Part shown: positions 141 to 56,336 of the stretch, in pieces
Position numbering within the stretch: the first letter of the stretch is position 1
How the letters are laid out: the number at the start of each line of letters is the position of its first letter
Assembly (NCBI GenBank): GCA_016866775.1
Contig: VGLJ01000030.1
Coordinates: 1-56,929, forward strand
Reading direction: 5' to 3'
DNA length: 56,929 nucleotides
Origin: Candidatus Rokuibacteriota bacterium
GTDB lineage: Bacteria > Methylomirabilota > Methylomirabilia > Rokubacteriales > CSP1-6
Made by a program: the position numbers and the translations under genes
Notes under the pieces: generated by a model
Told to the model about the DNA's origin: nothing
Databases searched by the model: none
What the model saw: the letters and a program-made list of their open reading frames with translations, nothing else

Positions 141-242
141 GCAACACGGGAGGAGGTAGAGCATTCCGGGCATGGCGGCATGTCAGCAGTCGTCACGGCA
201 CAGCGGCAACACTAACAAGCCATCGCGCGGGCAGGCCTGAAG

Positions 243-1223
243 ATGGCCAGGTGGGCAACCGGCGTCGCCCTCGCCCTTACGCTCCTCGCTCTATCACTCG
301 GTGCCGAGGCGCAGCAGACGATGCGCGGACCCCGAATCGGTGTCGTGACCATGGTTTCTGCTCATACGCCTCGCACGGAGGCTTTCCGCAAGGGCCTGAC
401 CGAACGAGGGTACGTCGAAGGGCAGAATGTCGCCATCGACTGGAAATGGGCCGCGGGAAGCCTCGCGCGGCTTCCCCAACTCGTGAGCGAGTTGCTCGAC
501 GCGCGCGTCGACGTCATCGTTGCCGGCGGGCCGCAGCCGATCGCGGTCGCGAAGAGGCTCACCAGTACGACTCCGATCGTTATGGTCGGCGCGGCTGACC
601 CGGTGGGAGCGGGCTTCGTCAAGACCCTCGCCCGACCTGGCGGTAACCTGACCGGTCTCTCCATCGACGCTACCCCGGAACTGTTTCAGAAGCAGGTTGA
701 CCTCATCAAAGAGGCAATCCCTCGCGTAACCCGTATTGCCGTTATCTGGAACTCGGCCGTGCCCGGCGCCGCAGCGTTCTTGGACCGGCTACGGCAGGCC
801 GCGCAGGTCCTCAAGCTGGAACTCTATTGGGTCGACGTTCAGGGGCGCGACGAGTTCGAGAAGTTCTTTGCAGTGATGAGCCGCGAGCGAGCGGGTGCGG
901 TTCTCGTCGTGACCGATCCGTTCATCTATGTCCATCGAGCTCGGGTGGTAGGACTCGCCGCACGGTATCGTATCCCGGCGATGTACCTCTGAGAGGAGAT
1001 CGTGAGCGCCGGCGGCCTCATGTCCTACGGCCCTGACCTCGCTGACCTCTACGGACGGGCTGCTATCTACGTCGACAGAATTCTCAAGGGCGCTAAGCCC
1101 GGCGAACTCCCGGTCGAGCAGCCCGAGAAGTTCCATCTCGTCATCAACCTGAGAACCGCCAAGGCCCTTGGCCTGACGATCCCGGCGCCACTGCTGCTGC
1201 GGGCCGATCAGCTCCTTGAATGA
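243..1223 (+). pseudogene. ABC transporter substrate-binding protein (ABC_sub_bind family), interrupted by in-frame TGA
   Basis: Predicted exported solute-binding protein of the ABC_sub_bind (TrpX-like) family. It starts with a signal peptide (residues 1-24, ending GAEAQ) followed by the family's opening strand 'RIGVV' and the 'LTGLS' region. The reading frame is stopped by TGA at 990-992 and continues in the same frame to 1223 with the conserved C-terminal block (AGGLMSYGP near 1008, then LRADQ at the end). Restoring the codon gives about 326 residues, the normal family length. CGA to TGA is the simplest change. No other component of a transporter is adjacent, and the gene lies between two attC-like sites, which suggests a mobile cassette. 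The stop is not a selenocysteine codon, since the family has no Cys there. Confidence 0.75.
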
Positions 1224-41150: not shown

Positions 41151-42152
41151 CTAGACGAGCGGCCAGATGGACATCACCGAGGGCAGACCGCTCGCGAGGC
41201 GCGTCCACCGGCGGTCGTCGCCGACCCTCCACACCTCGCCGGTGTCCGTCCCGACGATCACGCCGCCCGGCGACGTCGGATCGGGGACGAGCCCGTGGAA
41301 GTTGGCGGCGGACGGCGAATGCGCATCGTCGCAGAGCGAGCGCCACGTGGCGCCGCGGTCGTCCGAGCGAGACAGCATCGCCTGCGCGCCGCCCTCGTCC
41401 TTGTAGTGTGAAAACGCCGTGGGCGCGCTCGCGACCGTCACGCCGTACGGCGGACGCGGATCGATGCAGAGCGGCCGCGCGTACCTAGGCGTCACGCCGC
41501 GCCACGCGTAGACCCAGCTCGCCCCCGCGTCGTCCGAGCGGAACATGCCCGCGTTGCCCTCGATGTGCTCGGCGACGCCATCGATGCGCCCGTAGCCCGT
41601 GGACGCGAAGAGCACCGACGGCTCGGCCGGATGCGCGACCATCATGTGAATGTCGGGATTGTTACCGGGCAGGTCGACACGCCACGTCACCCCGGCGTCC
41701 TTCGTGCTCACGACGCCGCCCACTTCGACGCCCACCCAGATGCGCTGCGGATCGGCGCGATCCACGACGAGCGCGCGCGCACGCCCCGGCTGGCGCGGCT
41801 TCACCGGCACACACCAGCGCTCGGCGTCCGGCGCGTGCGCGAACGAGTCGATCTCCTGCCACGTGCGTCCGTCGTCCTTGCTGTGGAAGAGCCCCGCCGG
41901 CTGCGTGCCGACGTACACGTCGCGGGCGTGCGGTCCCGTGAAGATCTGCCAGACCGTGCGGCCCTCGACGCCGCTCGCGTGCCATGTGCGCCCGCCGTCC
42001 TCGGACGCGAAGAGTCCGGTCTCGGCACCGGCGAGCAGACGTCCTCCGCTCGCCTTGAGATCGCGCACGGTCCCCGCGGCGAGGACCACCACCGCCTCAC
42101 GCGCGTCGTCGACGGCGAAGAGCCCCTTGGTCGTTCCGGCCAGCAGTTTCAT
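41151..42152 (-). CDS. BNR/sialidase-like beta-propeller protein
   Basis: 333 aa without signal peptide. Asp-box motifs recur: 'ASEDGGRTWHASG', 'HSKDDGRTWQEID', 'STKDAGVTWRVDL', 'RSDDAGASWVYAW', 'RSDDRGATWRSL', giving five or six propeller blades. Proteins annotated as exo-sialidase or photosystem II stability-factor-like share this, but no sialidase catalytic Arg triad or Tyr/Glu is obvious, so enzymatic activity is doubtful. It lies between two LLM genes in the same direction. A second BNR protein of similar length is at 54346-55392. Confidence 0.83.
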   Translation of the reverse strand: MKLLAGTTKGLFAVDDAREAVVVLAAGTVRDLKASGGRLLAGAETGLFASEDGGRTWHASGVEGRTVWQIFTGPHARDVYVGTQPAGLFHSKDDGRTWQEIDSFAHAPDAERWCVPVKPRQPGRARALVVDRADPQRIWVGVEVGGVVSTKDAGVTWRVDLPGNNPDIHMMVAHPAEPSVLFASTGYGRIDGVAEHIEGNAGMFRSDDAGASWVYAWRGVTPRYARPLCIDPRPPYGVTVASAPTAFSHYKDEGGAQAMLSRSDDRGATWRSLCDDAHSPSAANFHGLVPDPTSPGGVIVGTDTGEVWRVGDDRRWTRLASGLPSVMSIWPLV

Positions 42153-43295: not shown

Positions 43296-44071
43296 GCCAG
43301 GAACTCCGTCACGATGCGGGCGAACGTGTCGGGCTGCTCGATCGCCACGAGGTGGCCGCACGTGTCGAGCACGGTGAGCGTCGCGTTGGGCAGGAGCCGG
43401 CGGTACTGCTCGCCGCACACGACGGGAACGATCCGATCCTCGCGGCCCCACACGATCAACGCGCGGTTCGTCACGCGCGGCAGGAACCGCTCGAGCGTCG
43501 GGTTGTGCATGTAGGGCTTCCATCCGAGCCGGGCCGTCATCTCGCGATTGCGCTCGGCGATCTCGAGCTCGGCCGGCGTCGGCGCCCGGCCGAACAGCTC
43601 GTCCCACTCGGGGATCGTGGTCTTGTCGTAGACGTTGAGCTCGCGAAGCTCCGCGGGCGAGTGGAAGAAGACGTCGAGGATCTCGCCTCGCTCCGGCTTG
43701 AGCCCGGCGGCCGAAACGAGGACGAGCTTGTCGATGGCGCCCGGGCTCATCGCGGCCATCTCCGCCGCGGTCCAGCCGCCGAGCGACGCGCCGAGGAGAT
43801 GCGGCCGCCGGAGTCCCGCGGCCTCGATGAACCAGAGGTGGAAGCGTGCGAGATCGGCCACGCCCTCCATCCACTCGGCGTCGCCCGACTGGCCGAAGCC
43901 CGGATGCGTCGGCGCCCACACCGTGTAGCGCTCCGCGATCTGTGTGAGCGAGCGCGTGAAGCCGCGGTTGCCGCCCGCGCCGTGGAGCACGAGCAGCGGA
44001 TCGCCCTGCCCGCCGATCCACGTGTGCACCGCGAGACCACCGACCGAGATCGTCTCCTCACGGATCTTCAT
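43292..44071 (-). CDS. Alpha/beta fold hydrolase
   Basis: 259 aa. The oxyanion 'LLVLHGAGGNRGFTRSL' is near residue 25, nucleophile elbow 'LLGASLGGWTAAEMA' (Ser in GASLG) near 95, an acidic 'WGREDRIVP' near 208 and the terminal His in 'LDTCGHLVAIEQPD'. The full triad suits meta-cleavage-product hydrolases or haloalkane/epoxide-type relatives. ATG 44071 is divergent from the DsrE-family gene, with only 25 bp between the two start codons. Confidence 0.88.
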   Translation of the reverse strand: MKIREETISVGGLAVHTWIGGQGDPLLVLHGAGGNRGFTRSLTQIAERYTVWAPTHPGFGQSGDAEWMEGVADLARFHLWFIEAAGLRRPHLLGASLGGWTAAEMAAMSPGAIDKLVLVSAAGLKPERGEILDVFFHSPAELRELNVYDKTTIPEWDELFGRAPTPAELEIAERNREMTARLGWKPYMHNPTLERFLPRVTNRALIVWGREDRIVPVVCGEQYRRLLPNATLTVLDTCGHLVAIEQPDTFARIVTEFLA

Positions 44072-44096
44072 GCGCCGTATTATGCTCTCCTTCGCG

Positions 44097-44459
44097 ATGA
44101 GCCGGATTCTCGTCAAGAGCGCGTGGGGCTCGGACGATCCCACGACAGCCGCGTTCGCGTTTCTCCACGCGAATGCGCTGGCCGAAGCCGGGCACGAGGC
44201 GCAGATCTTCCCGCTCGGCGAAGCCGTGGCGCTGATGCGCGCGCCCGTCGCGCAGGCGGTCGTGCCCGTGGGCTGGCCGCCGCTCGCCGAGACGCTGCGG
44301 GCCACCGTCAAGCTGCGCGTACCCATCCACGTCTGAGGCGCGTGCTCGAGGGCCCGTGGGGTCCTCGATGGCGACCTCGAAGGCAAGAACGCCGCGTTCG
44401 CGAACCCGACCATCCTCGTCCCGCTCGTCGAATGGGCGGACAAGATCCTCACCGAATGA
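44097..44459 (+). CDS. DsrE-family selenoprotein with Sec80 (UGA at 44334-44336)
   Basis: DsrE/DsrF-like sulfur-relay fold, 120 aa if the internal TGA is read through. 'RILVKSAWGSDDPTTAAFAF' and 'HANALAEAGHEAQIFPLGEAV' are the family's first strand and helix. The TGA at 44334-44336 falls exactly where relatives have Cys in 'CGAC..ARG': it gives U80-G-A-C83, a UxxC redox motif. The frame continues to 44457-44459, where the stop overlaps the next ATG (ATGA). A 10-bp hairpin with a GTG loop follows the TGA (44346-44368). ATG 44082 and 44070 are alternative starts. If UGA stops, a 79-aa truncated protein lacking the active site would result, which is unlikely. Confidence 0.85.
44346..44368 (+). 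promoter_or_regulatory. Candidate bacterial SECIS element of the DsrE-like gene
   Basis: Ten consecutive pairs (44346-44355 with 44359-44368, one G-T wobble) closed by the triloop GTG. The loop G at 44356 is 20 nt from the last base of the TGA, inside the range known for bacterial SECIS hairpins, which carry a G or GU at the start of a small apical loop for SelB binding. It lies within the coding sequence, as expected in bacteria. Confidence 0.78.
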
Positions 44460-45232
44460 GCGGGCGGCTCGCGGACAAGGTCGCGCTCGTCACCGGCGGC
44501 GCCTCCGGGATCGGGCGTGAGATCGCGCGGTGCTACGTCGCCGAAGGGGCCAGCGTGGTGATCGGCGATCGCAACGCGACGCTGCTCGCCGAGGTGGAGA
44601 AGGCGCTCGGGGCCGCCGCCGTCGAGATGGACGTCACGCGCGAGGCGGACGTCGAGCGCGCCGTCGGCCTCGCGCTGTCGCGCTTCGGCCGGCTCGACAT
44701 CGGCGTGAACTCCGCCGGTCTCGGCTTCGGCGTCTCCGTCCTGGAGCAGACCGAGGCGCAGTGGGACACCGTGGTCGACGTGTGTCTCAAGGGCGTCTTC
44801 CTGTGTCTCAAGCACGAGGCGAGGGCGATGGTGAACGCAGGCCATGGTGGCGTGATCATCAACATCGCGTCGATCAGCGCGCGCCAGCCCGGCGAGGGTC
44901 TGTCCGCCTACTGCGCGGCCAAGGCCGGCGTCGAGATGCTCACGCGCTGCGCGGCGATGGAGCTGGGTCCTCAGCGCGTGCGCGTGGTCGGCATCGGCCC
45001 GGGGCTGATCGACACGCCGCTGACGACCTTCCAGCAGGACCGCCCGCACGTGCGCGAGGCGTTCCTCGCCAACATCCCGCTCGGACGCGTCGGGGTGCCG
45101 CGCGACATCGCGAACGCGGCCGTGTTCCTCGGCTCCGACGAGGCGAGCTGGATCTCCGGTGACACGCTGTTCGTGGACGGCGCGGAGCTGACGAAGAAGT
45201 ACCCCGAGCTCGGCCGCTTCCGACGGTCATGA
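44456..45232 (+). CDS. SDR family oxidoreductase
   Basis: 258-aa classical short-chain dehydrogenase. TGxxxGIG is present as 'VTGGASGIGREIA' near residue 14. 'VVIGDRNATL' has the acidic residue of NAD-preferring members. 'VNSAGLG' replaces NNAG. Catalytic Ser in 'NIASISARQPG', Tyr-x3-Lys in 'YCAAKAG', and the C-terminal 'SWISGDTLFVDGAELT'. ATG 44456 overlaps the stop of the selenoprotein gene, so its translation depends on ribosomes passing the upstream UGA. Substrate unknown. Confidence 0.9.
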   Translation: MSGRLADKVALVTGGASGIGREIARCYVAEGASVVIGDRNATLLAEVEKALGAAAVEMDVTREADVERAVGLALSRFGRLDIGVNSAGLGFGVSVLEQTEAQWDTVVDVCLKGVFLCLKHEARAMVNAGHGGVIINIASISARQPGEGLSAYCAAKAGVEMLTRCAAMELGPQRVRVVGIGPGLIDTPLTTFQQDRPHVREAFLANIPLGRVGVPRDIANAAVFLGSDEASWISGDTLFVDGAELTKKYPELGRFRRS

Positions 45233-45906
45233 GCGCGGTGTTGACGCCGACGGATGCCTGGCGCGCCGCCTGGCCCGGCGCGGCCGCCGGGGTGCTCGTG
45301 ATGGACAAGGTCGCGAACCCGCCGTCGCATCCCGAGCTCGACCGCCGCAAGGCCGCGCTCGAGACGGCGCTCCGCGAGCGGTACGGGCACATGACACGCG
45401 CCGAGCTCCTCGCTCTGCACAGCCTGCAGGCCTACGCGGACTACTATCGGCGGTTCAAGAAGGTGTACCACGTCCAGCTCCAGCTCGAGTCGGTCGCGCT
45501 CAAGGGCAAGGCCGTGCCGCGCGTGGCCGCGCTCGTCGAGGCGATGTTCATGGCGGAGCTCGAGAGCCAGCTCCTCACGGCCGGCCACGACGGCGCGACG
45601 CTCGACCTCCCGATCCGCGTCGACGTCGCGGGCGAGGGCGAAAGCTACGTCCTCCTGAACGGCCGGCCGCAGCCGCTCACCGCCGGAGACATGGTGATGC
45701 GAGACGGCGCGGGCGTGATCTCGAGCGTGCTCCACGGCCCCGACGGGCGCAGCCGCATTCGCCCGGAGACCACGCGCGCGGTGTTCGCGGTCTACGCGCC
45801 GCCGGGTATCGGGGCGGAGCTCGTGGCCGCGCACCTGCGCGCGATCGCGGGGAACGTCGTCGTCGTCGCGCCGGCGGCCAACATCACCAGCCTGGAGGTC
45901 TATTGA
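45229..45906 (+). CDS. B3/B4 tRNA-binding domain protein (COG3382-like)
   Basis: 225 aa resembling the stand-alone B3/4 domain of phenylalanyl-tRNA synthetase beta. 'AAWPGAAAGVLVMDKVANPP' opens it, then a helix with 'LRERYGHMTRAELLAL', 'YADYYRRFKKVYHVQLQLESV', 'PLTAGDMVMRDGAGVISSVLHG', and 'ETTRAVFAVYAPPGI'. Stand-alone B3/4 proteins may edit mischarged tRNA or bind a related ligand. It is wedged between the SDR gene (ATGA overlap) and the second selenoprotein gene (TGATG overlap). A link to selenocysteine is not shown. Confidence 0.8.
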   Translation: MSAVLTPTDAWRAAWPGAAAGVLVMDKVANPPSHPELDRRKAALETALRERYGHMTRAELLALHSLQAYADYYRRFKKVYHVQLQLESVALKGKAVPRVAALVEAMFMAELESQLLTAGHDGATLDLPIRVDVAGEGESYVLLNGRPQPLTAGDMVMRDGAGVISSVLHGPDGRSRIRPETTRAVFAVYAPPGIGAELVAAHLRAIAGNVVVVAPAANITSLEVY

Positions 45907-47096
45907 TGCCGCGACTCGACCGCCTGCCCGAAGCCAATCGCAAGAATCTCCTCAACCTCCCGATGCAGGCGAACGACTCGGCGCCGTTCACGCGGCTCGC
46001 GAAGCCGCTGACCGCGTGCCGCCTGGCGATCGTGACCACCGCCGGCCTGCACCGGCGCGGTGACACGCCGTTCGGCCCGGGCGAGCAGACGTATCGCGTG
46101 ATCCCGGCCGACACGCCCGCCGCCGACATCGTCCAGAGCCACACGAGCCTCGGCTTCGATCGCACGGCGATCATGCGCGACGTCAACATCTCCTACCCGA
46201 TCGACCGGCTCCGCGAGCTCGTCGACCGCCGCGCACTCGGCGGTCTCGCGCCGAACGGCTACTCGTTCATGGGCGCGCAGCGCGAGCTCACGAAGATCGC
46301 CAACGAGACCGGGCCGGAGGTCGCGGGCCGGTTGCGCGCGGACGGTGCCGACGCCGTGCTGCTGACGCCGACCTGACCGTTCTGCACGCACACCGTCGGT
46401 GTGCTGGCCCGCGCGCTCGAAGCGCACGGCATCGCGACGACGTCGATCAGCCTGGTGCGCGAGCACACGGACAAGGTGAAGCCGCCGCGCGCGCTCTTCG
46501 TGCCGTTCCCCTTCGGGCACGCGCTCGGCCGTCCGAACGCGCCGGACCTGCAGCATCGCGTGCTGCGCGCGGCGCTCGACCTGCTGACGGAGCCGGCGGG
46601 GCCCGTCTTGCGCGACTTTCCCGACGACGCGGAGCCCGGCGATCAGCCGCCCGCGCCGCGCCAAGCGTCGGTCATTCCCGTCGCGTCGAACGCCGCGGGC
46701 GACGCCGTCGCCGAGGTGCGCGACCTCCGCGAGGGGCATGCGCAGCGGCTCGCGAAGCACGGCGGGCGCACGGCCTTCGGATTGAGCGGCGTCGACGTCG
46801 CGCGCTTCGACGACGTCGTGCCCTTCCTTCAGCGGTTCGCCGAGAGCGGCGATGCGGAGCTCGCCGGCCGCCCCGCCGTCGCGCTGCCCGCGTTCGTTCG
46901 CTGGTGCGCCGACGACCTCAAGGCGCTCGCCTTCGAGAGCTTCATGGCGATGCGGCCCGAGGCCGGCGGCGACGAAGTCGCGCGCTGGTTCTGGAGCACG
47001 ACGGCCGCGGGCCAGCTCCTGCGCCGCGTGCGCGATCGGCTCGACGCCTCCGACGACCCCGCCTGGAAGGCGGCGGCGTTCGGCGTCGCCCGGTGA
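45906..47096 (+). CDS. GrdB/PrdB-like reductase selenoprotein with Sec157 (UGA at 46374-46376)
   Basis: Relative of the glycine/sarcosine/betaine/D-proline reductase selenoprotein B family, 396 aa if UGA is Sec. The first part reads 'LAIVTTAGLHRRGDTPF', 'YRVIPADTPAADIVQSH', 'PIDRLRELVDRRALGGLA'. At 'LLTPT' the TGA follows, then 'PFCTHTVGVLARALEAHGIAT' (read in parts), so U157-P-F-C160 makes a UxxC motif exactly at the family active site. 'LVREHTDKVKPPRALFVPFPFG' and a helical C-terminal domain to 47096 continue in the same frame. ATG 45906 overlaps the B3/4 stop. A hairpin follows the TGA (46388-46404). Stand-alone proteins of this family occur outside Stickland fermenters; the substrate is unknown. 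Confidence 0.87.
46388..46404 (+). promoter_or_regulatory. Candidate bacterial SECIS element of the GrdB-like gene
   Basis: GCACACC (46388-46394) pairs perfectly with GGTGTGC (46398-46404) around the triloop GTC. The loop G at 46395 lies 19 nt from the last TGA base. Loop size, GU start and distance match the hairpin after the other in-frame TGA (44346-44368). Confidence 0.75.
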
Positions 47097-47596
47097 TCGG
47101 GCCGCCCACCCCACGCCTGCTCGCCACGCCGCTGGCGCCCGGAGACTTCGGGCTGCTCTGCGCGATGCATCGCGATCCGGACGTGATGGCGACGCTCGGC
47201 GGCGTCCGCACCGACGAGCGCACGCGCGCCTACCTCGCCGAGAACCTCGCGCACTGGGACGAGCACGGCTTCGGGATGTGGATCTTCCGCGACCAGAAGA
47301 CCGGCGACTTCGTCGGCCGCGGCGGCCTCCGCCACGTCGTGCTGGACAACCGCCCGGAAGTCGAGATCTTCTACGCGCTCGTCCGCGACGCGTGGGGCAA
47401 GGGGTTCGCCACCGAGATCGCGGCGGCGAGTCTCCACGTCGCGTTCCGCCAGCTCGCGCTGCGCGACGTGGTCGCGTTCACGTTGCCCGACCACGCCGGC
47501 TCCCGGCGGGTGATGGAGAAGGTCGGTCTGCGCTACGAGCGCGACATCATGCACCACGACGTGCGCTGCGTCCTGTACCGGATCCTGGCTCCGTGA
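47093..47596 (+). CDS. GNAT family N-acetyltransferase (RimJ/RimL-like)
   Basis: 167 aa. 'TPRLLATPLAPGDFGLLCAMH' is the RimJ-type start. 'GFGMWIFRDQKTGDFVGRGGLRH' follows, then 'EIFYALVRDAWGKGFATEIA', where the usual acetyl-CoA loop (Q/RxxGxG/A) reads 'AWGKGFA', and 'AGSRRVMEKVGLRYERDIMHH'. It may acetylate a protein N-terminus or small amine. Start GTG 47093 overlaps the selenoprotein stop (GTGA), so the operon continues. Confidence 0.88.
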   Translation: MIGPPTPRLLATPLAPGDFGLLCAMHRDPDVMATLGGVRTDERTRAYLAENLAHWDEHGFGMWIFRDQKTGDFVGRGGLRHVVLDNRPEVEIFYALVRDAWGKGFATEIAAASLHVAFRQLALRDVVAFTLPDHAGSRRVMEKVGLRYERDIMHHDVRCVLYRILAP

Positions 47597-47964
47597 CACC
47601 CGCGGCGACGTCGCTCGTGCCGATGGCGTTCGTCGCCAGCGTCCCGCGCGCGGTCGCGTTCTACGAGACGCTCGGCTTCACGGTCGGCAACACGTTCACG
47701 CCGCCCGACGCCGCGGAGCCGTCGTGGGCGTGGCTCGAGAGCGGCGCCGCGAAGCTCATGGTGGCGCGCGCGACGGCACCGGTGATTCCCTCGCAGCAAG
47801 CCGTGCTCTTCTACGTCTCCTGCGAGGACATCAGGGCGATGCGCGCGGATCTTCAGGCGGCGGGCGTGCACGCGGGGCCGATCCAGTTCCCGTTCTATGC
47901 CGCGCCCGGCGAGTTCCGCCTCGAAGATCCGGACGGCTACGTCGTGATGGTCATGCAGCCGTGA
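47593..47964 (+). CDS. VOC family (glyoxalase/bleomycin-resistance fold) protein
   Basis: 123 aa with two babbb modules. 'LVPMAFVASVPRAVAFYETLGF' is the first, 'PSWAWLESGAAKLMVARA' gives the second strand pair, 'AVLFYVSCEDIRAMRADLQAAGV' the second module and 'GEFRLEDPDGYVVMVMQP' the diagnostic end with the metal-ligand Glu position. Function is not predictable within this diverse superfamily. Start GTG 47593 overlaps the GNAT stop (GTGA). Confidence 0.85.
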   Translation: MTPAATSLVPMAFVASVPRAVAFYETLGFTVGNTFTPPDAAEPSWAWLESGAAKLMVARATAPVIPSQQAVLFYVSCEDIRAMRADLQAAGVHAGPIQFPFYAAPGEFRLEDPDGYVVMVMQP

Positions 47965-49130
47965 CGCGCACCGCGGACGTCGTCATCGTGGGCGGCGGCG
48001 TCACCGGCGTCTCGATCGCGTTTCATCTCGCCGGGGCCGGCGTGCGACGTGTCGTCGTCCTCGAGCGCCGCTTCCTCGCCAGCGGCGGCACGGGCCGGAG
48101 CGTCGGGATCGTGCGCCAGCTCTATCCGACGACGGAGACGAGCGCGATGGTCCGGCGCTCGCTGAGCGTGTTCCAGGACTTCGCGAACGTGGTCGGCGGC
48201 GACGCCGGGTACGTCGCGTGCGGCGCGCTGATCGGCGTGGCGCCCGCGATGCGGTCCAAGCTCGAGGCGAACCTCGCCATGCAGCGCGGCCTCGGGATCC
48301 GCGCGGAGATCCTGGAGCCCGCCGACGTCGCGCGGGTCGAGCCGGCGATCGATCCGGCGGGGCTCGGCGCGGTGCTCTGGGAGCCGGAGTCCGGCTACGG
48401 CGACCCGACCGGCGTCACCCTCGCGTACGCCGACGCCGCGCGCCGCCGCGGCGTCGTGATCGAGCAGGGCGTGGAGGTCACGGCGCTCGACGTCGACGGC
48501 GATCGCGTGCGCGGCGTACGGACCGCGAGCGGCGATCGCATCGACGCGCCCGTGGCGGTCAACGCGGCCGGCTTGTGGTCGCCCGCGATCGCGCGGCTCG
48601 CCGGCGTCACGCTGCCGATCATCGTGGGCCGCCACCCGGTCTTCACCATCGAGCGCGGGCCCGCGCTGCCCGCGCATCGCGTCTACCTCGACCTCGCCGG
48701 CGGCAGCTACGTCCGTCCGGAGACGGGCCACCTCACGCTGACCGGCTCGCTCACCGACGACGAGACCGAGCATCCGATGGATCCGGAGCTGCTCGGCGCG
48801 GAGGCCGGCTTCGAGGAAGCGGCGGCGGTGCTCGAACGCACGGGGCGCGCGGTGCCGAGCCTCGCGGACGCGAGGTATCGACGCGGATACGCCGGCGCCT
48901 TCGACATCACGCCGGACTGGATGCCCGTGCTCGACCAGACGGGTCCCGCCGGGCTCTTCACCGCGGCGGGCATGAGCGGCCACGGCTTCAAGCTCGCGCC
49001 GTCCGTCGGCGAGATGATGGCGGCGCTGATCACCGGCGCGACGCCGCCCGTGAGCGCCGCGCCGTTCCGTCTCGACCGCTTCGCGGCGATCGAGGCCGGC
49101 GGCACGTTCGTCGCCTCGTACTTGCGCTGA
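47961..49130 (+). CDS. FAD-dependent oxidoreductase (DAO family, sarcosine oxidase beta-like)
   Basis: 389-aa D-amino-acid-oxidase-fold flavoprotein. The dinucleotide motif 'VVIVGGGVTGVSIAFHLAGAG' is at residues 7-27 (VIVGGG core). 'SGGTGRSVGIVRQLYPT' resembles the flavin-contact segment of sarcosine oxidase beta and dimethylglycine oxidase. 'NAAGLWSPAIARLAGV' and 'GYAGAFDITPDWMPVLD' come later, and 'GMSGHGFKLAPSVGEMMA' is the C-terminal FAD block. It likely oxidises a secondary or N-methyl amine. Start GTG 47961 overlaps the VOC gene stop. It closes the operon begun at 44097. Confidence 0.88.
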   Translation: MTRTADVVIVGGGVTGVSIAFHLAGAGVRRVVVLERRFLASGGTGRSVGIVRQLYPTTETSAMVRRSLSVFQDFANVVGGDAGYVACGALIGVAPAMRSKLEANLAMQRGLGIRAEILEPADVARVEPAIDPAGLGAVLWEPESGYGDPTGVTLAYADAARRRGVVIEQGVEVTALDVDGDRVRGVRTASGDRIDAPVAVNAAGLWSPAIARLAGVTLPIIVGRHPVFTIERGPALPAHRVYLDLAGGSYVRPETGHLTLTGSLTDDETEHPMDPELLGAEAGFEEAAAVLERTGRAVPSLADARYRRGYAGAFDITPDWMPVLDQTGPAGLFTAAGMSGHGFKLAPSVGEMMAALITGATPPVSAAPFRLDRFAAIEAGGTFVASYLR

Positions 49131-49161
49131 CCGCACCCCGCGCCTATCGTCGACGAACCCC

Positions 49162-49668
49162 ATGATCACCGAGGTCGTCCGGAACCTCTACGACTACAAC
49201 GCGTGGGCGAACGCGCGCATCCTCGACACGGCCGCCGCGCTCACGCTGGAACAGCTCCCCGCGCCCGGCGGCGCGAGCTTCGAGTCCGTGCGCGACACGC
49301 TCGTGCACACCATGGGCGCGCAGTGGCTCTATCTCGAGCGCTGGCGCGGGCGCTCGCCGCGTGCGCTGCCCGATGCGGCGGCGTTCGCCGACCTCGCGGC
49401 GATCCGCGCGCGCTGGGACGAGATCGAGCGCGAAACCCAGGTGCTCGTGGCCGCGCTCGACGACGCGCGGCTCATGGCGCCGCTGTCGTACGTCAACATG
49501 CAGGGCGAGACGTGGACCTATCCGCTCTGGCAGCAGATGATCCACCAGGTGAATCACGCGACCCAGCACCGCAGCGAGGCCGCCGTCCTCCTCACCCAGC
49601 ACGGCCACTCGCCGGGGTGGCTCGACCTGCTGTATTTCGTCGATCTGCGTAACGCCGCCACGCTATAG
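49162..49668 (+). CDS. DinB-family putative metal-dependent hydrolase
   Basis: 168-aa four-helix DinB/YfiT-like protein. 'LYDYNAWANARILDTAAAL' is the characteristic first helix. His ligands are in 'RDTLVHTMGAQWLYLERW' and the C-terminal 'HQVNHATQHRSEAAVLL', giving the metal-binding His triad. 'SPGWLDLLYFVD' ends it. Some members are thiol-dependent transferases (bacillithiol or mycothiol). Start ATG 49162, 31 bases after the flavoprotein stop. Confidence 0.87.
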   Translation: MITEVVRNLYDYNAWANARILDTAAALTLEQLPAPGGASFESVRDTLVHTMGAQWLYLERWRGRSPRALPDAAAFADLAAIRARWDEIERETQVLVAALDDARLMAPLSYVNMQGETWTYPLWQQMIHQVNHATQHRSEAAVLLTQHGHSPGWLDLLYFVDLRNAATL

Positions 49669-49704
49669 TCATTTGCCCGACTCTGGAGGAGGCAGGAACC
49701 ACCC

Positions 49705-51978
49705 ATGCTGACGATCGAATCGACCCCCGACATGGCCGCGCAAGTCTACGCCGCGATGGAGAAAAACATCGCCGTCGTGCGCCGGCGCCTCGGCCGTCCG
49801 TTGACCCTCGCGGACAAGGTGCTGCTCGGCCATCTCGACGACCCCGAGCACCAGGACATGGAGCCCGGCAAGAGCTACCTCTTCCTGCGTCCGGATCGGG
49901 TCGTGCTGCAGGACGTGCTCGGGCAGACGGCGATGCTCCAGTTCCGGCAGACGCGCCGCGAGAAGGTCGCGGTGCCGACCACGGTGCATTGCGATCACCT
50001 GATCCAGGCGCGCGTGGAAGGCGAGCGTGACCTGCGCGAATCGCTCGCGGAGAACACCGAGGTCTATGACTTCCTGAAGGCCGCCGCCGCGAAGTACGGC
50101 GCCGGCTTCTGGAGCCCGGGCGCGGGGATCATCCACCAGGTCGTGCTCGAGAACTACGCCTTCCCCGGCGCGCTGATCATCGGCACGGATTCGCACACGC
50201 CGAACGCGGGCGGGCTCGGCGCGTGCGCGGTCGGTGTCGGCGGCGCGGACGCCGTCGAGGTCATGGCGGGGCTGCCGTGGGAGGTGCTCTATCCCCGGCA
50301 CATCGCGGTGTTCCTGAAGGGCAAGCTGAGCGGCTGGACGGCGCCGAAGGACGTGATCCTCTACGTCGCCGGCAAGCTCACCGTCGCGGGCGGCACCAAC
50401 GCGATCGTCGAGTACATCGGGCCCGGCGCGCGCACGATCAGCGCCACCGGCAAGGCGACGATCACGAACATGGGCGCGGAGCTCGGCGCGACGACGTCGA
50501 TGTTCCCCGTCGACGAGAAGATGGCCGCGTACCTCGCGGCGACGGGCCGCGCGGCGCTCGGGCCGCTCGCGCTCACGCATCAGGCGCTGCTGTCGCCCGA
50601 CGCCGACGTCGAGGCGCATCCCGAGAAGCACTACGACACCGTGATCGAGCTCGACCTGTCGACGCTCGAGCCGCACGTCGTCGGCCCGCATTCGCCCGAC
50701 CGCGCCCGGCCGATCAGCAAGCTCGCCGCCGAGGTGCGTGACCCGGGCAACGGCTTCCTCGACAAGATCTCGAGCGCGCTCATCGGCAGCTGCACGAACT
50801 CCTCCTACGAGGACATGAGCCGGGCGGCCGACGTGGCCGAGCAGGTGAAGGCGCACGGTCTCAAGGTCACGACGCCGTTCATGGTGACGCCGGGCTCCGA
50901 GCTGGTCCGCGCGACGATCGAGCGCGACGGGCAGCTGAAGTCGCTGCGCGACGTCAACGGGACGGTCCTCGCCAACGCGTGCGGGCCGTGCATCGGGCAG
51001 TGGCGCCGCGCGAAGGACCAGGCGGCGGTCGCGAACACGATCGTGACCTCGTACAACCGCAACTTCCCGGCGCGCAACGACGGCGAGCGGACGACGATGA
51101 ACTTCATCGCCAGCCCCGAGATCGTCACCGTGCTGGCCGTCGCGGGGCGGCTCAGCTTCAACCCGATCACCGACACGCTCGTGGGCGCCGACGGCAAGCC
51201 GTTCAAGCTCGAGGCGCCGAAGACCGCGCCCGAGGTGCCCGCGCGGACCTTCGATCGCGGCCGCGACCTCTACGTCGCGCCGCCGGCCGACGGCAGCGGC
51301 GTCACCGTCTCGGTGAGCCCGCAGAGCGAGCGGCTGCAGATCATGGAGCCGTGGCCGGCGTGGGACGGCAAGGACTTCACCGACATGCCGGTGCTGCTCA
51401 AGGCCAAGGGCAAGACGACGACCGACCACATCTCTCCGGCCGGCGTCTGGCTCCGCTATCGCGGGCACCTCGACAAGTTCAGCGACAACCTGCTGCTCAC
51501 GGGGATCAACGCCTACACCGGCGAGCCGGGCAAGACGATCAACGTGCTGACCGGCGAGCGCGGCGTGATGGTGTCGAAGGTCGCGCGGGACTACAAGGCG
51601 CGCGGCGTGAAGTGGGTCATCGTCGGCGACAGCAACTACGGCGAGGGATCGAGCCGCGAGCACGCGGCGCTCTCGCCGCGGCTGCTCGGCGGCGCCGCGG
51701 TCATCGTGCGCAGCTTCGCGCGCATCCACGAGTCGAACCTCAAGAAGCAGGGGCTGCTCGCGCTGACGTTCAGCAACCCGGCGGACTACGACCGGATCCG
51801 CGAGGACGATCGCATCAGCCTCGTCGGCCTGCGGGATCTCGCGCCGGGCAAGCCGGTCGAATGCCGCATCGTCCACGCGGACGGCACCACCGAGGTCATC
51901 CAGCTCGGGCACACGTTCGCGGCGTCGCAGCTCGAGTGGTTCCGGCGCGGCTCCGCGCTGAACCTCTTCCACAAGTAA
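49705..51978 (+). CDS. acn: Aconitate hydratase (mitochondrial-type)
   Basis: 757 aa, the size of the mitochondrial-like aconitases rather than the about 890-aa AcnA. [4Fe-4S] ligands are Cys363 in '[10 protein letters not shown]' and Cys426/Cys429 in 'CGPCIGQW'. '[11 protein letters not shown]' and '[15 protein letters not shown]' are substrate-site segments, and the C-terminal swivel domain carries '[21 protein letters not shown]'. It interconverts citrate and isocitrate in the TCA cycle. GGAGG lies upstream of ATG 49705. It is followed after six bases by a cupin gene. Confidence 0.95.
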
Positions 51979-51984
51979 GCCGCG

Positions 51985-52632
51985 ATGCGCCTCGCCCTCC
52001 TCGAGGATCGCCTCGAGGAGGGCGCGCGTCTCTCGCTTCCCTCCGCCCCGCGCGTGCTCTACGTCGTCAGCGGCCGCGTCGTCGTCGAGGGCGACGGCTC
52101 GCGCGTCTTCCTCGCGGACGATCACGCGTGGCATGGGACCTCGGCCGTCGTCGTGCACACGGAGCGCACCGCACGACTCTGGCGTTGGGAGCTTCGGCGG
52201 GAGGACGGCGCGACGGAGGCGCACGACCCTGCGTTACGCACGACCGTGAAGCTCAGCCACGCGATCGACCTGCCGTCAGGCGGCGCGCTCATGCGCGCGG
52301 ACCGCGTCGACTTTCCGCCGCGAGGCATCGCGTACACGCACACGCACCAGGGTCCCGGGATCCGCGTCCTGCTCGAGGGGCGCTTCCGCGTCGACACGAA
52401 CGGACACACGATGGTCGTGGCGCCGGGCGAGGCGTGGTTCGAGCGCGGTCCCGATCCGGTCTATGCGGAGTCGACCGCCGACGAGCCGACGAGCTTCGTG
52501 CGCGTGATGGTGCTTCCGGTGGCGCTCCTCGGGAAGAGCTCGATTCGCTACGTGAAGCCGGAAGACCAGGCGCGGCCGAAGTCGCAGCGGTACACGGTCC
52601 TCGTCGACGCGCCCCTCGAGGAGGCCGGATGA
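51985..52632 (+). CDS. Cupin-domain protein
   Basis: 215-aa small bicupin-like protein. The first half has a strand-rich 'RVLYVVSGRVVVEGDGSRVFLADDHAWHG'; the second has 'RGIAYTHTHQGPGIRVLLEGRFRVDTNG', with a His-x-His pair near residue 114, and 'VVAPGEAWFERGPDPVYAES'. Metal binding is plausible only in the second cupin. The next gene starts within its stop codon (ATGA). Function unknown. Confidence 0.8.
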   Translation: MRLALLEDRLEEGARLSLPSAPRVLYVVSGRVVVEGDGSRVFLADDHAWHGTSAVVVHTERTARLWRWELRREDGATEAHDPALRTTVKLSHAIDLPSGGALMRADRVDFPPRGIAYTHTHQGPGIRVLLEGRFRVDTNGHTMVVAPGEAWFERGPDPVYAESTADEPTSFVRVMVLPVALLGKSSIRYVKPEDQARPKSQRYTVLVDAPLEEAG

Positions 52633-53153
52633 TACGCGCGGTGGCCGCCGGTCTCCTCGTCGTGGTCCTCGCCGCGCATGTCGCCCACGCCGCGCCGTCC
52701 GGGCCCGACATGCAGGGCACGTGGGTGCTCGATCCCGGCGCGAGCGACAACGTCCACCGCGCGATCGACGCGCTCGACGCGCAGATGGGCGGACTGCGCG
52801 GACCGATCGCGCGGATGCGCCTGCGCGACGTCAACCAGCCGCCCCAGCGTACCGAGGTCGCGTACACGGCGACCGACGTCAGCATCACCACCGACGGCCA
52901 GGACACCATCCGCACGCCGTTCGACGATCGCCCGGTGAGGTGGAAGGCGAGCGACGGCGAGGAGTTCACGATCCGGACGGTCTGGGACGGTCGCACCATG
53001 AAGCGCGTCTTCGTCGCCGACGACGGCCAGCGCGCGAACACCTACGTCTTCAGCGACGACGGGACCACGCTCCGGATGAGCGTCGTGCTCACGAGCCCGC
53101 AGCTGCCCGGGCCGCTCGAATACACGCTCGTCTACAAACGCGACGTCCAGTGA
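52629..53153 (+). CDS. Exported protein of unknown function
   Basis: 174 aa. Signal peptide residues 1-22 (AVAAGLLVVVLAAHVAHA). The mature part begins 'MQGTWVLDPGASDNVHRAID', resembling small lipocalin-like or DUF-type 'GTW.LD...S' domains that occur in exported soil-bacterial proteins. Then come strands 'TEVAYTATDVSITTDG', 'RTMKRVFVADDGQ', 'TTLRMSVVLTS', and the terminal 'YTLVYKRDV'. It overlaps genes on both sides (ATGA with the cupin gene; GTGA with the PCMT gene). Confidence 0.78.
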   Translation: MIRAVAAGLLVVVLAAHVAHAAPSGPDMQGTWVLDPGASDNVHRAIDALDAQMGGLRGPIARMRLRDVNQPPQRTEVAYTATDVSITTDGQDTIRTPFDDRPVRWKASDGEEFTIRTVWDGRTMKRVFVADDGQRANTYVFSDDGTTLRMSVVLTSPQLPGPLEYTLVYKRDVQ

Positions 53154-54323
53154 CCGATCCCACGGCGCTCCGCGCGGCGCTCGTCGAGATGCTGCGGCAG
53201 AAGGGCGCCGCGCGTACGCCCGCGATTGCCGACGCGTTCGCCGGGGTGCCGCGGCACTTGTTCGTGCCCGACGTCTCCATCGAGGAGGCGTACCAGGACC
53301 GCGTGATTGCCACCAAGCGTCTCGACAGCGGCGAGGTCGTGAGCTCGTCGTCGCAGCCCGAGATCATGGCGATCATGCTGGAACAGCTCGACGTGCGGCC
53401 GGGCCACCGCGTGCTCGAGATCGGCGCGGGCACCGGCTACAACGCCGCGCTGCTCGCTCACCTCGTGGGACCGGCCGGCCCGGTGGTCGCGGCCGACATC
53501 GACGAGGCCATCGTGGCCGGCGCGCGCGCGCATCTCGCCGCGGCCGGTGTCGGCGGCGTGCGGGTCGTGTGCGCGGATGGCTGGGCCGGAGTTCCGGATG
53601 GCGCGCCGTACGACCGCATCGTGCTCACCGTCGGCGCTCACGACATCGCGCCGGCGTGGCGCGCACGGCTGGCGCCGGGCGGACGCCTCGTCCTTCCGCT
53701 GGCGCTGCCCGCCGTGCAGGCGGCAATCGCGTTCGACGAGCGCGAGGGCGGCCTCGAGAGCGTATCGGTGCGCGGCTGCCTGTTCATGCGCCTTCGCGGC
53801 TCCTCGGCGATGGCGAGGCGCCGCGTCGCCGTCGGACCCGAGCCCGCGCCGGCGGTGTGGCCACGCGGCGATCACACGATCGACGGCGCCGCCACCCATG
53901 CGCGGCTGCTCACGCCTCCGAAGGAGCTCGCCACCGATCTCGGAGTCCGGAACTGGGATCTCTATGACCGCCTCGTGTTCTGGCTCGCCCTTCACGCGCC
54001 GAGCTCGGCGTGGCTCACCGCGGAGGGCCCCGCCCTCTCCACGAAGCTCGTCCCCGCGCTCTTCGACGGCGGCGGCGAGCAGGCGGCGACCTTCGGTCTC
54101 TTCGAGCGTGAGAGCGTGGCGCTGCTCGTCCGGCGCGCGACCATTCCCGGCGAGCGAGGCTCGCGCCGTCTGGGCCTGGGACGGCGCCGGCCGACGGGGT
54201 CTCTCGGGGCTGCGCGTCCGCGCGCTCCCGATCGAGCAGCCGTACGCGCCGCGTCCGGCCGAGATCGCGCTCCCGCGCGACTGCACGCGGCTCGTGCTCG
54301 ACTGGCCGGCTGTGGCACAGTAA
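53150..54323 (+). CDS. Protein-L-isoaspartate O-methyltransferase-like enzyme with C-terminal extension, frameshift near 54150
   Basis: SAM-dependent methyltransferase of the PCMT family. It shows 'VPRHLFVPDVSIEEAYQD', 'SSSSQPEIMAIMLEQLDV', motif I 'RVLEIGAGTGYNAALLAHL' and 'YDRIVLTVGAHDI'. The PCMT core ends near residue 200, after which a long extension follows, as in actinobacterial-type PCMT homologues. In this extension the frame is lost near 54140-54160. The other frame gives 'EARAVWAWDGAGRRGLSGL' and 'LDWPAVAQ' to the stop at 54321-54323, a more natural ending than the long Arg-rich tail. The GTG start 53150 overlaps the upstream stop. Confidence 0.8.
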
Positions 54324-54345
54324 GGGCCCTCGAAAGGAGTCTTCC

Positions 54346-55392
54346 ATGAGCCAGGGCACCCAGGTCTTCGTCGGCGCGGGACAGTGGACGTCCACCAAGA
54401 AGAGCGGCGCGCTCCATCGCGGCAGCGGTGACGGCGACTGGGAGCAGCTCACGAAAGGACTCCCGCAGCCCGTGTCGGTCCAGGCCATCACGATCCACCC
54501 GACGAACCGCGACGTCATCTTCGTCGGCACGCAGGACGGTCCGTACCGGAGCACCGACGGTGGCTCGACCTGGGAGCGCACGGGTTTTCCGAGCGGGCTG
54601 CAGGTGTGGTCGATCACGTTCCATCCGCGGGATCCGCGCGTGGTCTTCGCCGGCACGTCGCCCGTCGCCGTCTTCCGTAGCGACGACGGGGGCAGCACGT
54701 GGCGCAAGCTGCCGAACGCGAAGCAGGACCGCGACCGCATCACGATGGCGTTTCCCAGCCGCGTGATGCGCATCGCGATCACGCCGGGCCACCCGGACGC
54801 GATCTACGCGGCGCTCGAAGTGGCGGGGGTGCTCCGAAGCGTGGACGGCGGCGAGACGTGGGAGGACTGCTCCGATCCGCTGGAGAAGCTGGCCGAGCGG
54901 CCGAACCTCAAGAGCAAGATCCAGAGCGACAGCGAGGCGGAGGGCATGCTGGACGCTCACGCGCTGCTCGTGAGCGACGCCGCGCCGAGCTCGGTCTTCC
55001 TCGCCGTGCGCATGGGCCTCTTCCGCAGTGACGATCGTGGCAAGACGTGGCAGGACATGGAAGTCGGCCGCTTCTCGCCGCTCACGTACGGGCGCGACAT
55101 CCGCGTCTCACCGCAGGATGCGAACGTGCTCTACGCCGCGCTCAGCCCCGCGGCGCGCAGCCAGGACGGCTCGGTCTATCGCAGCGCGGACCTCGGGCGC
55201 ACGTGGACCCGGTTCGATCACGGGGTGAAGGCGCACGCCACGATGATGTCGCTGGCGCTGCATCCGCGCGACGCGGCGCAGGTCTACTGCGTCTCGCGCT
55301 GCGGGCAGGTCTTCGGCACGCGGGACGGCGGGAAGAGCTGGCGCGAGTCTCCGCTCCCGGTGGACGACGTCTACGCGATCGCCTGTTCTTAG
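54346..55392 (+). CDS. BNR/sialidase-like beta-propeller protein
   Basis: 348 aa, no signal peptide. Repeated Asp-box motifs are 'RSTDGGSTWERTG', 'RSDDGGSTWRKLP', 'RSVDGGETWEDCS', 'RSDDRGKTWQDME', 'RSADLGRTWTRFD' and 'GTRDGGKSWRESP', i.e. six blades. It resembles the protein at 41151-42152 in size and motif type. No catalytic sialidase residues are evident. AAAGGAG precedes ATG 54346. A two-hairpin element follows its stop directly. Confidence 0.84.
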   Translation: MSQGTQVFVGAGQWTSTKKSGALHRGSGDGDWEQLTKGLPQPVSVQAITIHPTNRDVIFVGTQDGPYRSTDGGSTWERTGFPSGLQVWSITFHPRDPRVVFAGTSPVAVFRSDDGGSTWRKLPNAKQDRDRITMAFPSRVMRIAITPGHPDAIYAALEVAGVLRSVDGGETWEDCSDPLEKLAERPNLKSKIQSDSEAEGMLDAHALLVSDAAPSSVFLAVRMGLFRSDDRGKTWQDMEVGRFSPLTYGRDIRVSPQDANVLYAALSPAARSQDGSVYRSADLGRTWTRFDHGVKAHATMMSLALHPRDAAQVYCVSRCGQVFGTRDGGKSWRESPLPVDDVYAIACS

Positions 55393-55469
55393 ATGGGGCG
55401 GTGCGAGACGCACCCCCCAAGCCCCCCGCGCTCCGGGCCGGGAGTGAATCCCGGCCCTCCGCGAGTGCT
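55393..55469 (+). terminator. Two-hairpin 3' element, copy 2
   Basis: Starts at the stop of the BNR gene and fills the space to the convergent FIST gene. Hairpin one: GGTGCG (55400-55405) with CGCACC (55409-55414), loop AGA, extended by GGG/CCC across a mismatch. Hairpin two: nine pairs (55435-55443 with 55449-55457) around the loop GTGAA. Sequence, order and orientation relative to the preceding gene match 7801-7880. In hairpin two a C-G pair of copy 1 is a G-C pair here, a compensatory change. Between convergent genes a bidirectional terminator role is plausible. Confidence 0.62.
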
Positions 55470-56336
55470 CTAGACCTCCCGGGACGAGGGATCGCCGAGC
55501 GCGGCGATGACGAGCGCCCCCGGGACGTCGACCGGGTGCACGCCGCGTCCGTACGCGCCGACTTCCTCGCAGAGCCAGCCGACGCACGGGCCCGCTGACG
55601 GGCCGTCGTGCTCGCGGACCTGTTCGCGGATCGCAGCCCACTCGCGCTCCGCGGCCGAGCCGAGCGCGCGGAACCGGGCCATGCTCTCCAGTGCGAACAC
55701 GATCCGCGCCGGCTTGCCTTCGAGCCACTTGAGCGCGGTGCGCGTGGCATCGACGCTGCCGTGGATCATCATGTCGGCATCCGGCGCGCCCTCCGTCAGG
55801 CCGAGGCCCATGAGGTACGCCGCCTCCAGCCAGCCGACGCTCGCGAGCGCGGGCGTCGACGCGGCGCCGAAGACCTCGGCCGCCATCGTTCCGCACGCGG
55901 TCCGCATCTTCGGCCCCATCAGCTCGCGCCACGGGGTCAGGAAGCCCGCGGCCGGTGCGCCGCTGGCGTGCGTGCTGAAGCCGAGCGCGAAGCCGCGCGG
56001 ATAGCGGCCACGGAACGGCCAGCCGGCGAGCACGAGGCGCGCGGCGGCCTGGGCGGCATCCGCGAGACGGCGACCCGACGTCGCGGCGACGCCGCTGGTC
56101 GCGCCCTCGGCGTTGCTCACGCACACGACCATCGCCCCATCCGTGACGAGACCCTGATCGGTCAGCAGGCCGGCGGTCACGCCGCCCGTCACGCCGATCG
56201 GTCCCAGCACGCCGCGGATCGCGCGCGTCACGTCGCCACCGGGCGACGCCGTCGCGAGCACGATCGCGAGGTGCGGCGTGACGCCGTCGAGATCGGCTCG
56301 CGCCGTCGCGGCAGCGGCGAGGATGGCCTTCAGCAT
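55470..56336 (-). CDS. FIST-domain (FIST N/FIST C) sensory protein
   Basis: 288 aa. The family's signal-binding FIST modules are visible: 'PHLAIVLATASPGGDVTRAI', 'GVTGGVTAGLLTDQGLVTDGAMVVCVSN' in the N-terminal part, and the C-terminal segment with 'GKPARIVFALESMARFRAL' and 'GPCVGWLCEEVGAYG'. 'CEEVGAYG' corresponds to the 'GEI...G' end of FIST_C. FIST proteins bind small ligands such as amino acids and are usually tied to signalling, here perhaps with the HisKA protein 222 bases upstream on the same strand. Start ATG 56336. Confidence 0.78.
   Translation of the reverse strand: MLKAILAAAATARADLDGVTPHLAIVLATASPGGDVTRAIRGVLGPIGVTGGVTAGLLTDQGLVTDGAMVVCVSNAEGATSGVAATSGRRLADAAQAAARLVLAGWPFRGRYPRGFALGFSTHASGAPAAGFLTPWRELMGPKMRTACGTMAAEVFGAASTPALASVGWLEAAYLMGLGLTEGAPDADMMIHGSVDATRTALKWLEGKPARIVFALESMARFRALGSAAEREWAAIREQVREHDGPSAGPCVGWLCEEVGAYGRGVHPVDVPGALVIAALGDPSSREV

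Follow-up and report, generated by a model that had tools for sequence, protein, structure and literature searches.

An in-frame TGA almost certainly encodes selenocysteine in a two-domain PrdB-like protein of a Rokuibacteriota bacterium

The window analyzed here, which comprises 56,929 nucleotides of contig VGLJ01000030.1 from a Candidatus Rokuibacteriota genome, contains a PrdB-like gene whose apparent stop codon almost certainly encodes selenocysteine (Sec). Selenoproteins of this family are already known from metagenomes, and the apparently new part is a two-domain form in which an extra helical domain follows the Sec domain. At the level of sequence, the Sec residue, the SECIS element, the family assignment, the two-domain architecture, the Sec machinery of the genome, and the absence of a linked partner gene all find support. 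The host is presumably a soil bacterium.

Results

A conserved reading frame continues through the TGA

The PrdB-like gene occupies positions 45906-47096 of the forward strand. Its frame runs from an ATG at 45906 through a TGA at 46374-46376, corresponding to residue 157, to a terminal TGA at 47094-47096, and its translation yields a product of 396 aa in which the Sec residue lies within the motif TPTUPFCTH (context VLLTPT-U-PFCTHTVGVLARALE). An earlier note on this DNA had joined two same-frame ORFs (45906-46376 and onward to 47096) across the TGA, and the translation bears out this single frame. Mechanical ORF calling with Table 11 instead returns two separate ORFs of 157 and 231 aa, as would suit a TGA that is an ordinary stop, a sequencing error, or the mark of a pseudogene, with the product truncated at 156 aa. 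We consider such a reading extremely improbable given the conservation of the TGA and of the residues beyond it, together with the covarying SECIS hairpin and the complete Sec machinery described below. The opposite strand of this very GC-rich region also carries a 404-aa ORF (45900-47114), which was taken as a shadow ORF.

Ten full-length sequences of 396-397 aa, the window protein included, were compared. All ten come from separate genomes and carry a TGA at residue 157 within the motif TPTUPxCTH, where x is F, N, or L, and the full-length orthologues are 66-73% identical. Across the phylum, 67 of 95 genomes have a PrdB-like match, with a TGA in every match that spans residue 157; among GTDB contigs, the relatives that bear names come from Rokuibacteriota and Methylomirabilota MAGs. 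Among the ten full-length sequences, median dN/dS was 0.21 for residues 1-25, 0.27 for residues 26-156, and 0.19 for residues 158-229, followed by 0.33 and 0.22 for the C-terminal segments (residues 230-290 and 291-396, respectively). To judge from these ratios, which fall between 0.19 and 0.33 in all segments, purifying selection acts both upstream and downstream of the TGA. The earlier note would have abandoned its reading had homologues stopped at this position; instead, the ten sequences retain the TGA and remain constrained beyond it.

U157 does not vary among 31 homologues, and C160 is nearly invariant. Plasmid-borne homologues from Haematobacter and Roseomonas have an uninterrupted frame with Cys at the aligned Sec position (NCPIC and NCPVC, respectively), and the position thus provides the classical Cys/Sec pair. 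By alignment, then, Cys replaces Sec at position 157 in homologues of aerobic Alphaproteobacteria, and the TGA coincides with both the Sec of the PrdB UxxC motif and the alphaproteobacterial Cys, just as the earlier note had proposed in placing it at the active-site Cys/Sec position of the family (U-P-F-C). The alphaproteobacterial proteins, annotated as "Glycine/sarcosine/betaine reductase selenoprotein B family protein," share the domain and the active-site position with the window protein. They differ from it in having Cys for Sec, in their length of about 300 aa, and in lacking the C-terminal domain, and they are closest to a paralogue on contig C13 of the genome rather than to the window protein. 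These Cys forms of the C13-type protein are found on NZ_CP035511.1 (L110) and NZ_CP061179.1 (L111), where the genes adjoin cob genes in Haematobacter and selO in Roseomonas.

A covarying bSECIS hairpin follows the TGA

The 7-bp hairpin with a GTC loop reported in the earlier note was located at 46388-46404 on the forward strand (GCACACC-GTC-GGTGTGC). It starts 11 nt past the TGA, and its GNN triloop lies 18 nt after the UGA with G as the first loop base. The published bSECIS model calls for an apical loop of 3-9 nt, an upper stem of 4-16 bp, a G within the first two loop positions, a UGA-to-loop distance of 16-37 nt, and an energy of -7.5 kcal/mol or lower (PMC13188914). The window hairpin falls within all of these limits, with a 3-nt GTC loop, 7 bp, 18 nt, and -9.9 kcal/mol when folded alone. 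One of the ten orthologues (G054) has a weaker hairpin of 6 pairs and -6.5 kcal/mol. Folded singly, sequences scored no better than shuffles (z 0.02 for that of the window gene), and the case for the RNA element therefore rests upon conservation rather than energy. An Rfam search gave no match at gathering thresholds.

Synonymous variation in codons 159-167, which coincide with the hairpin, is lower than in any other stretch of nine codons in the gene (observed/expected 0.35, rank 1 of 387). Within them, a GGT codon is kept in nine of the ten sequences, even though GGT accounts for a minority of the Gly codons in each of the ten. Among the 31 homologues, the stem positions pair in 94.8% of cells, compared with 23-41% when the partners are slid, while cells changed on both sides of the stem number 43 versus 14.2 in shuffles. 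The stem covariation score (0.470 versus 0.108, 31 homologues) is likewise abolished by sliding the partners. For 28 of the 31 homologues, the best hairpin agrees in spacing and triloop. A better-scoring hairpin overlaps the triloop hairpin in L029 and L031, where the latter can form as well, and L002 has a 5-nt loop at 17 nt.

The earlier note had suggested a search of the genome for selABCD, and we found SelA, SelB, SelD, and tRNA-Sec all above their curated cut-offs. SelB is encoded on contig C43 (30823-32703) and scores 381 bits (cut-off 242), with SelA (592 bits, cut-off 268) adjoining it and tRNA-Sec (70 bits, cut-off 47) located on the same contig. SelD scores 335 bits (cut-off 125), and selD itself contains an in-frame TGA.

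The protein is PrdB-like but distinct from PrdB and GrdB

The window protein matches PF07355 (GRDB) with 35.3 bits, over the gathering cut-off of 22. Its best NCBIfam model is PrdB (TIGR04483), which aligns with residues 26-229 at 146 bits versus a cut-off of 300, and the GrdF, GrdH, and GrdB models score below it. As a positive control, the Peptoclostridium acidaminophilum PrdB reached 310 bits in the same TIGR04483 test, which indicates that the window protein is PrdB-like and not an equivalog. Against TIGR01918, it scores 34.8 versus a cut-off of 65.45, aligning with profile positions 204-419 of 431. These profile scores place it within the PrdB/GrdB superfamily, as PrdB-like rather than GrdB-like. 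The assignment to the GrdB/PrdB family in the earlier note therefore holds for the superfamily, whereas the protein remains below both the PrdB and the GrdB-type cut-offs.

It shares with PrdB (TIGR04483) a Sec within UxxC at the aligned position, although this motif is UPFC in the window protein and UGTC in Peptoclostridium PrdB. The window protein also has an extra C-terminal domain of 165 aa, and there is no PF09338 or PrdA-type gene on its contig. Relative to the selenoprotein B group of GrdB, GrdF, and GrdH (TIGR01918, PF07355), it is homologous to the C-terminal half of GrdB and lacks the N-terminal ~200 residues of that protein, whose full length is ~430 aa; the GrdB-like paralogue of the genome that does pass the TIGR01918 cut-off sits on contig C11, not in the window. 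Global Ocean Sampling data yielded abundant "proline reductase PrdB" UxxC selenoproteins of PF07355 outside the clostridia (235 Sec and 110 Cys forms), and the portion of that report available to us mentions no C-terminal helical domain for them (PMC2398784).

In the structural model, a strand at residues 150-154 and a helix at 158-173 both have pLDDT > 90, and U157 is placed at the N-terminus of the helix. The resemblance of TPTUPxCTH to GCTHYP led us to consider an Asp/Glu-racemase-like fold for the PrdB domain, an idea that found no support, as a Foldseek comparison of the whole model against the PDB returned nothing at E <= 0.001. A PDB sequence search with the window protein also found nothing relevant.

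A C-terminal helical domain sets the protein apart

The feature that sets the window protein apart is its C-terminal domain of ~165 aa, which was absent from the earlier note. This domain (residues ~230-396, forward strand 46593-47093) is predicted to be all-helical. Six helices were predicted in the model built from 31 sequences (mean pLDDT 85, pTM 0.63), and six were again obtained when the domain was modeled alone without an alignment (pLDDT 70). The domain has no match in Pfam or NCBIfam, and its separate model found no fold match in the PDB.

Among the 95 genomes of the phylum, the domain was detected in 13, as ten full-length fusions and three partial matches. A broader set of 388 genomes revealed it beyond the phylum, in four distant genomes. 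The four distant proteins are likewise PrdB-like fusions whose TGA (in UPLC or UPNC) occupies the corresponding position, with identities of 50%, 50%, 38%, and 38%; a fifth distant fused sequence (G389) shows 65% identity to the G188 protein throughout its length. In both genome sets, the complete domain was seen only as a fusion to the PrdB-like domain. A maximum-likelihood tree of the N-terminal domain places 14 fused proteins on one side of a branch with a modest support of 88/40, which favors a single fusion without proving it. In G063, a member of the same genus as G062, only residues 294-396 of the gene are kept (L073, contig C179, 9721-10146). This fragment is likely a remnant of a gene that lost its Sec domain, or else an assembly fault.

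The gene neighborhood includes a second selenoprotein gene

The PrdB-like gene is the fourth in a string of five overlapping forward-strand genes. The first encodes a DsrE-like selenoprotein (44097-44459; TGA at 44334-44336, motif UGAC), the second a short-chain dehydrogenase (SDR; 44456-45232) whose start and stop both overlap the neighboring genes (ATGA), and the third a B3/4-domain protein of 225 aa (45229-45906) whose stop overlaps the PrdB-like ATG. The last gene encodes a GNAT acetyltransferase (47093-47596), and its GTG start overlaps the PrdB-like stop. B3/4 and GNAT genes were not found beside orthologues of the PrdB-like gene, where the string is not conserved; the flanks of the orthologues include MFS, Rieske, Mo-hydroxylase, SDR, HAD, DUF3500, SoxYZ, and others, with no common theme.

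The DsrE-like gene is thus a second Sec gene, located 1.4 kb upstream and not mentioned in the earlier note. Its product matches PF02635 with 42.9 bits, and homologues occur in 43 of the 95 phylum genomes, most of them with an in-frame TGA. About 20 DsrE-like matches across the phylum genomes contain two TGAs, and the sequence was read in five of these. One is a paralogue in the same genome as the window (contig C12, 69241-69528; L101) with the motif UGGU, hence two selenocysteines, and the others are L102, L103, L104, and L105. A review lists DsrE-like selenoproteins only as UxxC forms with one Sec (PMC13188914). By eye, we also noted candidate BNR/sialidase-like repeat propellers with DGG-TW-type repeats at 41151-42152 (reverse strand) and 54346-55392 (forward strand) of the window, and a similar candidate near the C13 paralogue (L005).

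Grd-type genes reside on another contig

Contig C11 of the genome carries a grd-like cluster (43307-56332; L006), in this case within a non-clostridial genome. The cluster encodes a Sec-containing GrdA, two PF09338 GrdE-like proteins, and two GrdB-like Sec paralogues, and C11 is the only contig of the genome with PF04723 and PF09338 matches. A profile for PrdA (TIGR04480) had no match either in this genome or in any control genome. The earlier note had stated that no grd or prd partner is nearby, which is correct for the locus but does not extend to the organism, given the grd genes on C11. Four genomes (G040, G054, G062, and G070) carry an orthologue of the window gene but have no match to PF09338 or PF04723 (GrdA). 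The window protein is therefore apparently independent of that system, although these four are MAGs with an estimated completeness of 91-100% and a gene could have been missed in some of them. These genomes provide the strongest support for the view of the earlier note that the protein is probably not a classical Stickland reductase.

Discussion

How might such a protein function? Known PrdB and GrdB proteins are parts of multi-subunit complexes that also contain a carbonyl/pyruvoyl subunit, in which the selenolate is thought to attack the substrate held by the carbonyl subunit and a thiol then frees the Se-carbon adduct as a selenenylsulfide (PMC10298544). This precedent makes a partner in trans possible for the window protein as well. 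In that case, it would provide the Sec component of a Grd/Prd-type reductase whose pyruvoyl or GrdE-like partner comes from another locus, for example on C11, and would reductively cleave C-N or C-X bonds via a Se-carbon intermediate. Membership in the PrdB/GrdB superfamily is consistent with this arrangement, as is the presence of GrdA and two PF09338 genes in the same genome. Furthermore, a GrdB/GrdE-like pair of Cloacibacillus porcorum has been proposed, on the grounds of its induction by fluoroacetate, to cleave the C-F bond of fluoroacetate without a proprotein-derived pyruvoyl group (PMC10838667), which suggests that GrdB-like proteins may be re-targetable and that a proprotein-derived pyruvoyl partner may be dispensable. 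However, the PF09338 genes of C11 adjoin GrdB-like Sec paralogues of their own, four genomes have the orthologue in the absence of PF09338 or GrdA, and the window protein scores below both the PrdB and GrdB cut-offs. We therefore regard a partner in trans as unlikely.

Another reading is that of an antioxidant or detoxifying peroxidase or disulfide reductase, which would use the PrdB fold in the manner of Trx or Prx and be paired with the DsrE-like selenoprotein. The UxxC motif is typical for redox selenoproteins, and the DsrE-like UGAC gene lies within the same overlapping string. This pairing is not conserved, however, as the two genes are on separate contigs in genomes such as G055 and G070, while the invariant H79, D92, P98, E172, and R195 of the 31 PrdB-like homologues suggest a specific substrate pocket. 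Such an antioxidant role strikes us as quite improbable.

Since no carbonyl subunit is linked to the gene, we favor over both of these readings a stand-alone UxxC selenol/thiol reductase that employs the helical domain as a binding module, a proposal to which we give about an even chance. It accords with the four genomes that carry the orthologue but no PF09338 or PF04723 match and with the lack of conserved neighbors. SelB and tRNA-Sec almost certainly recode the UGA, directed by the downstream hairpin, and in the modeled structure U157 and Cys160, three residues further on, would constitute a UxxC redox pair. In such a stand-alone enzyme, the U157 selenolate would most likely attack an electrophilic small molecule, or possibly a disulfide or peroxide, and Cys160 may resolve the resulting Se-adduct to a selenenylsulfide, which cellular thiols would recycle with no pyruvoyl subunit involved. 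In place of the absent partner, the helical C-terminal domain might then bind the substrate or a partner protein. More speculatively, the fused proteins could represent a separate two-domain selenoenzyme family that reaches beyond a single phylum. In such a family, the PrdB-like Sec domain would need no pyruvoyl, GrdE, or GrdA partner, as the helical domain would supply the missing function; this broader view is doubtful at present.

In ocean metagenomes, few selenoproteins are more common than PrdB-like Sec proteins (PMC2398784), and a Methylomirabilota MAG has the largest predicted bacterial selenoproteome, with 63 predicted selenoprotein genes (PMC13188914). The literature searched, which largely excluded subscription titles, contained no description of the two-domain form and no assigned function for PrdB-like Sec proteins without prdA or grdA, and work on Rokubacteria/Methylomirabilota selenoproteins included nothing about the window protein. 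Genes of this type exemplify how standard-code ORF calling makes two false ORFs from one gene. The two-domain form, which by genome content needs no known partner, offers a compact single-gene system for functional testing. If the existence of a separate two-domain family were true, reductive selenol chemistry of the glycine/proline reductase type would operate outside amino-acid fermentation.
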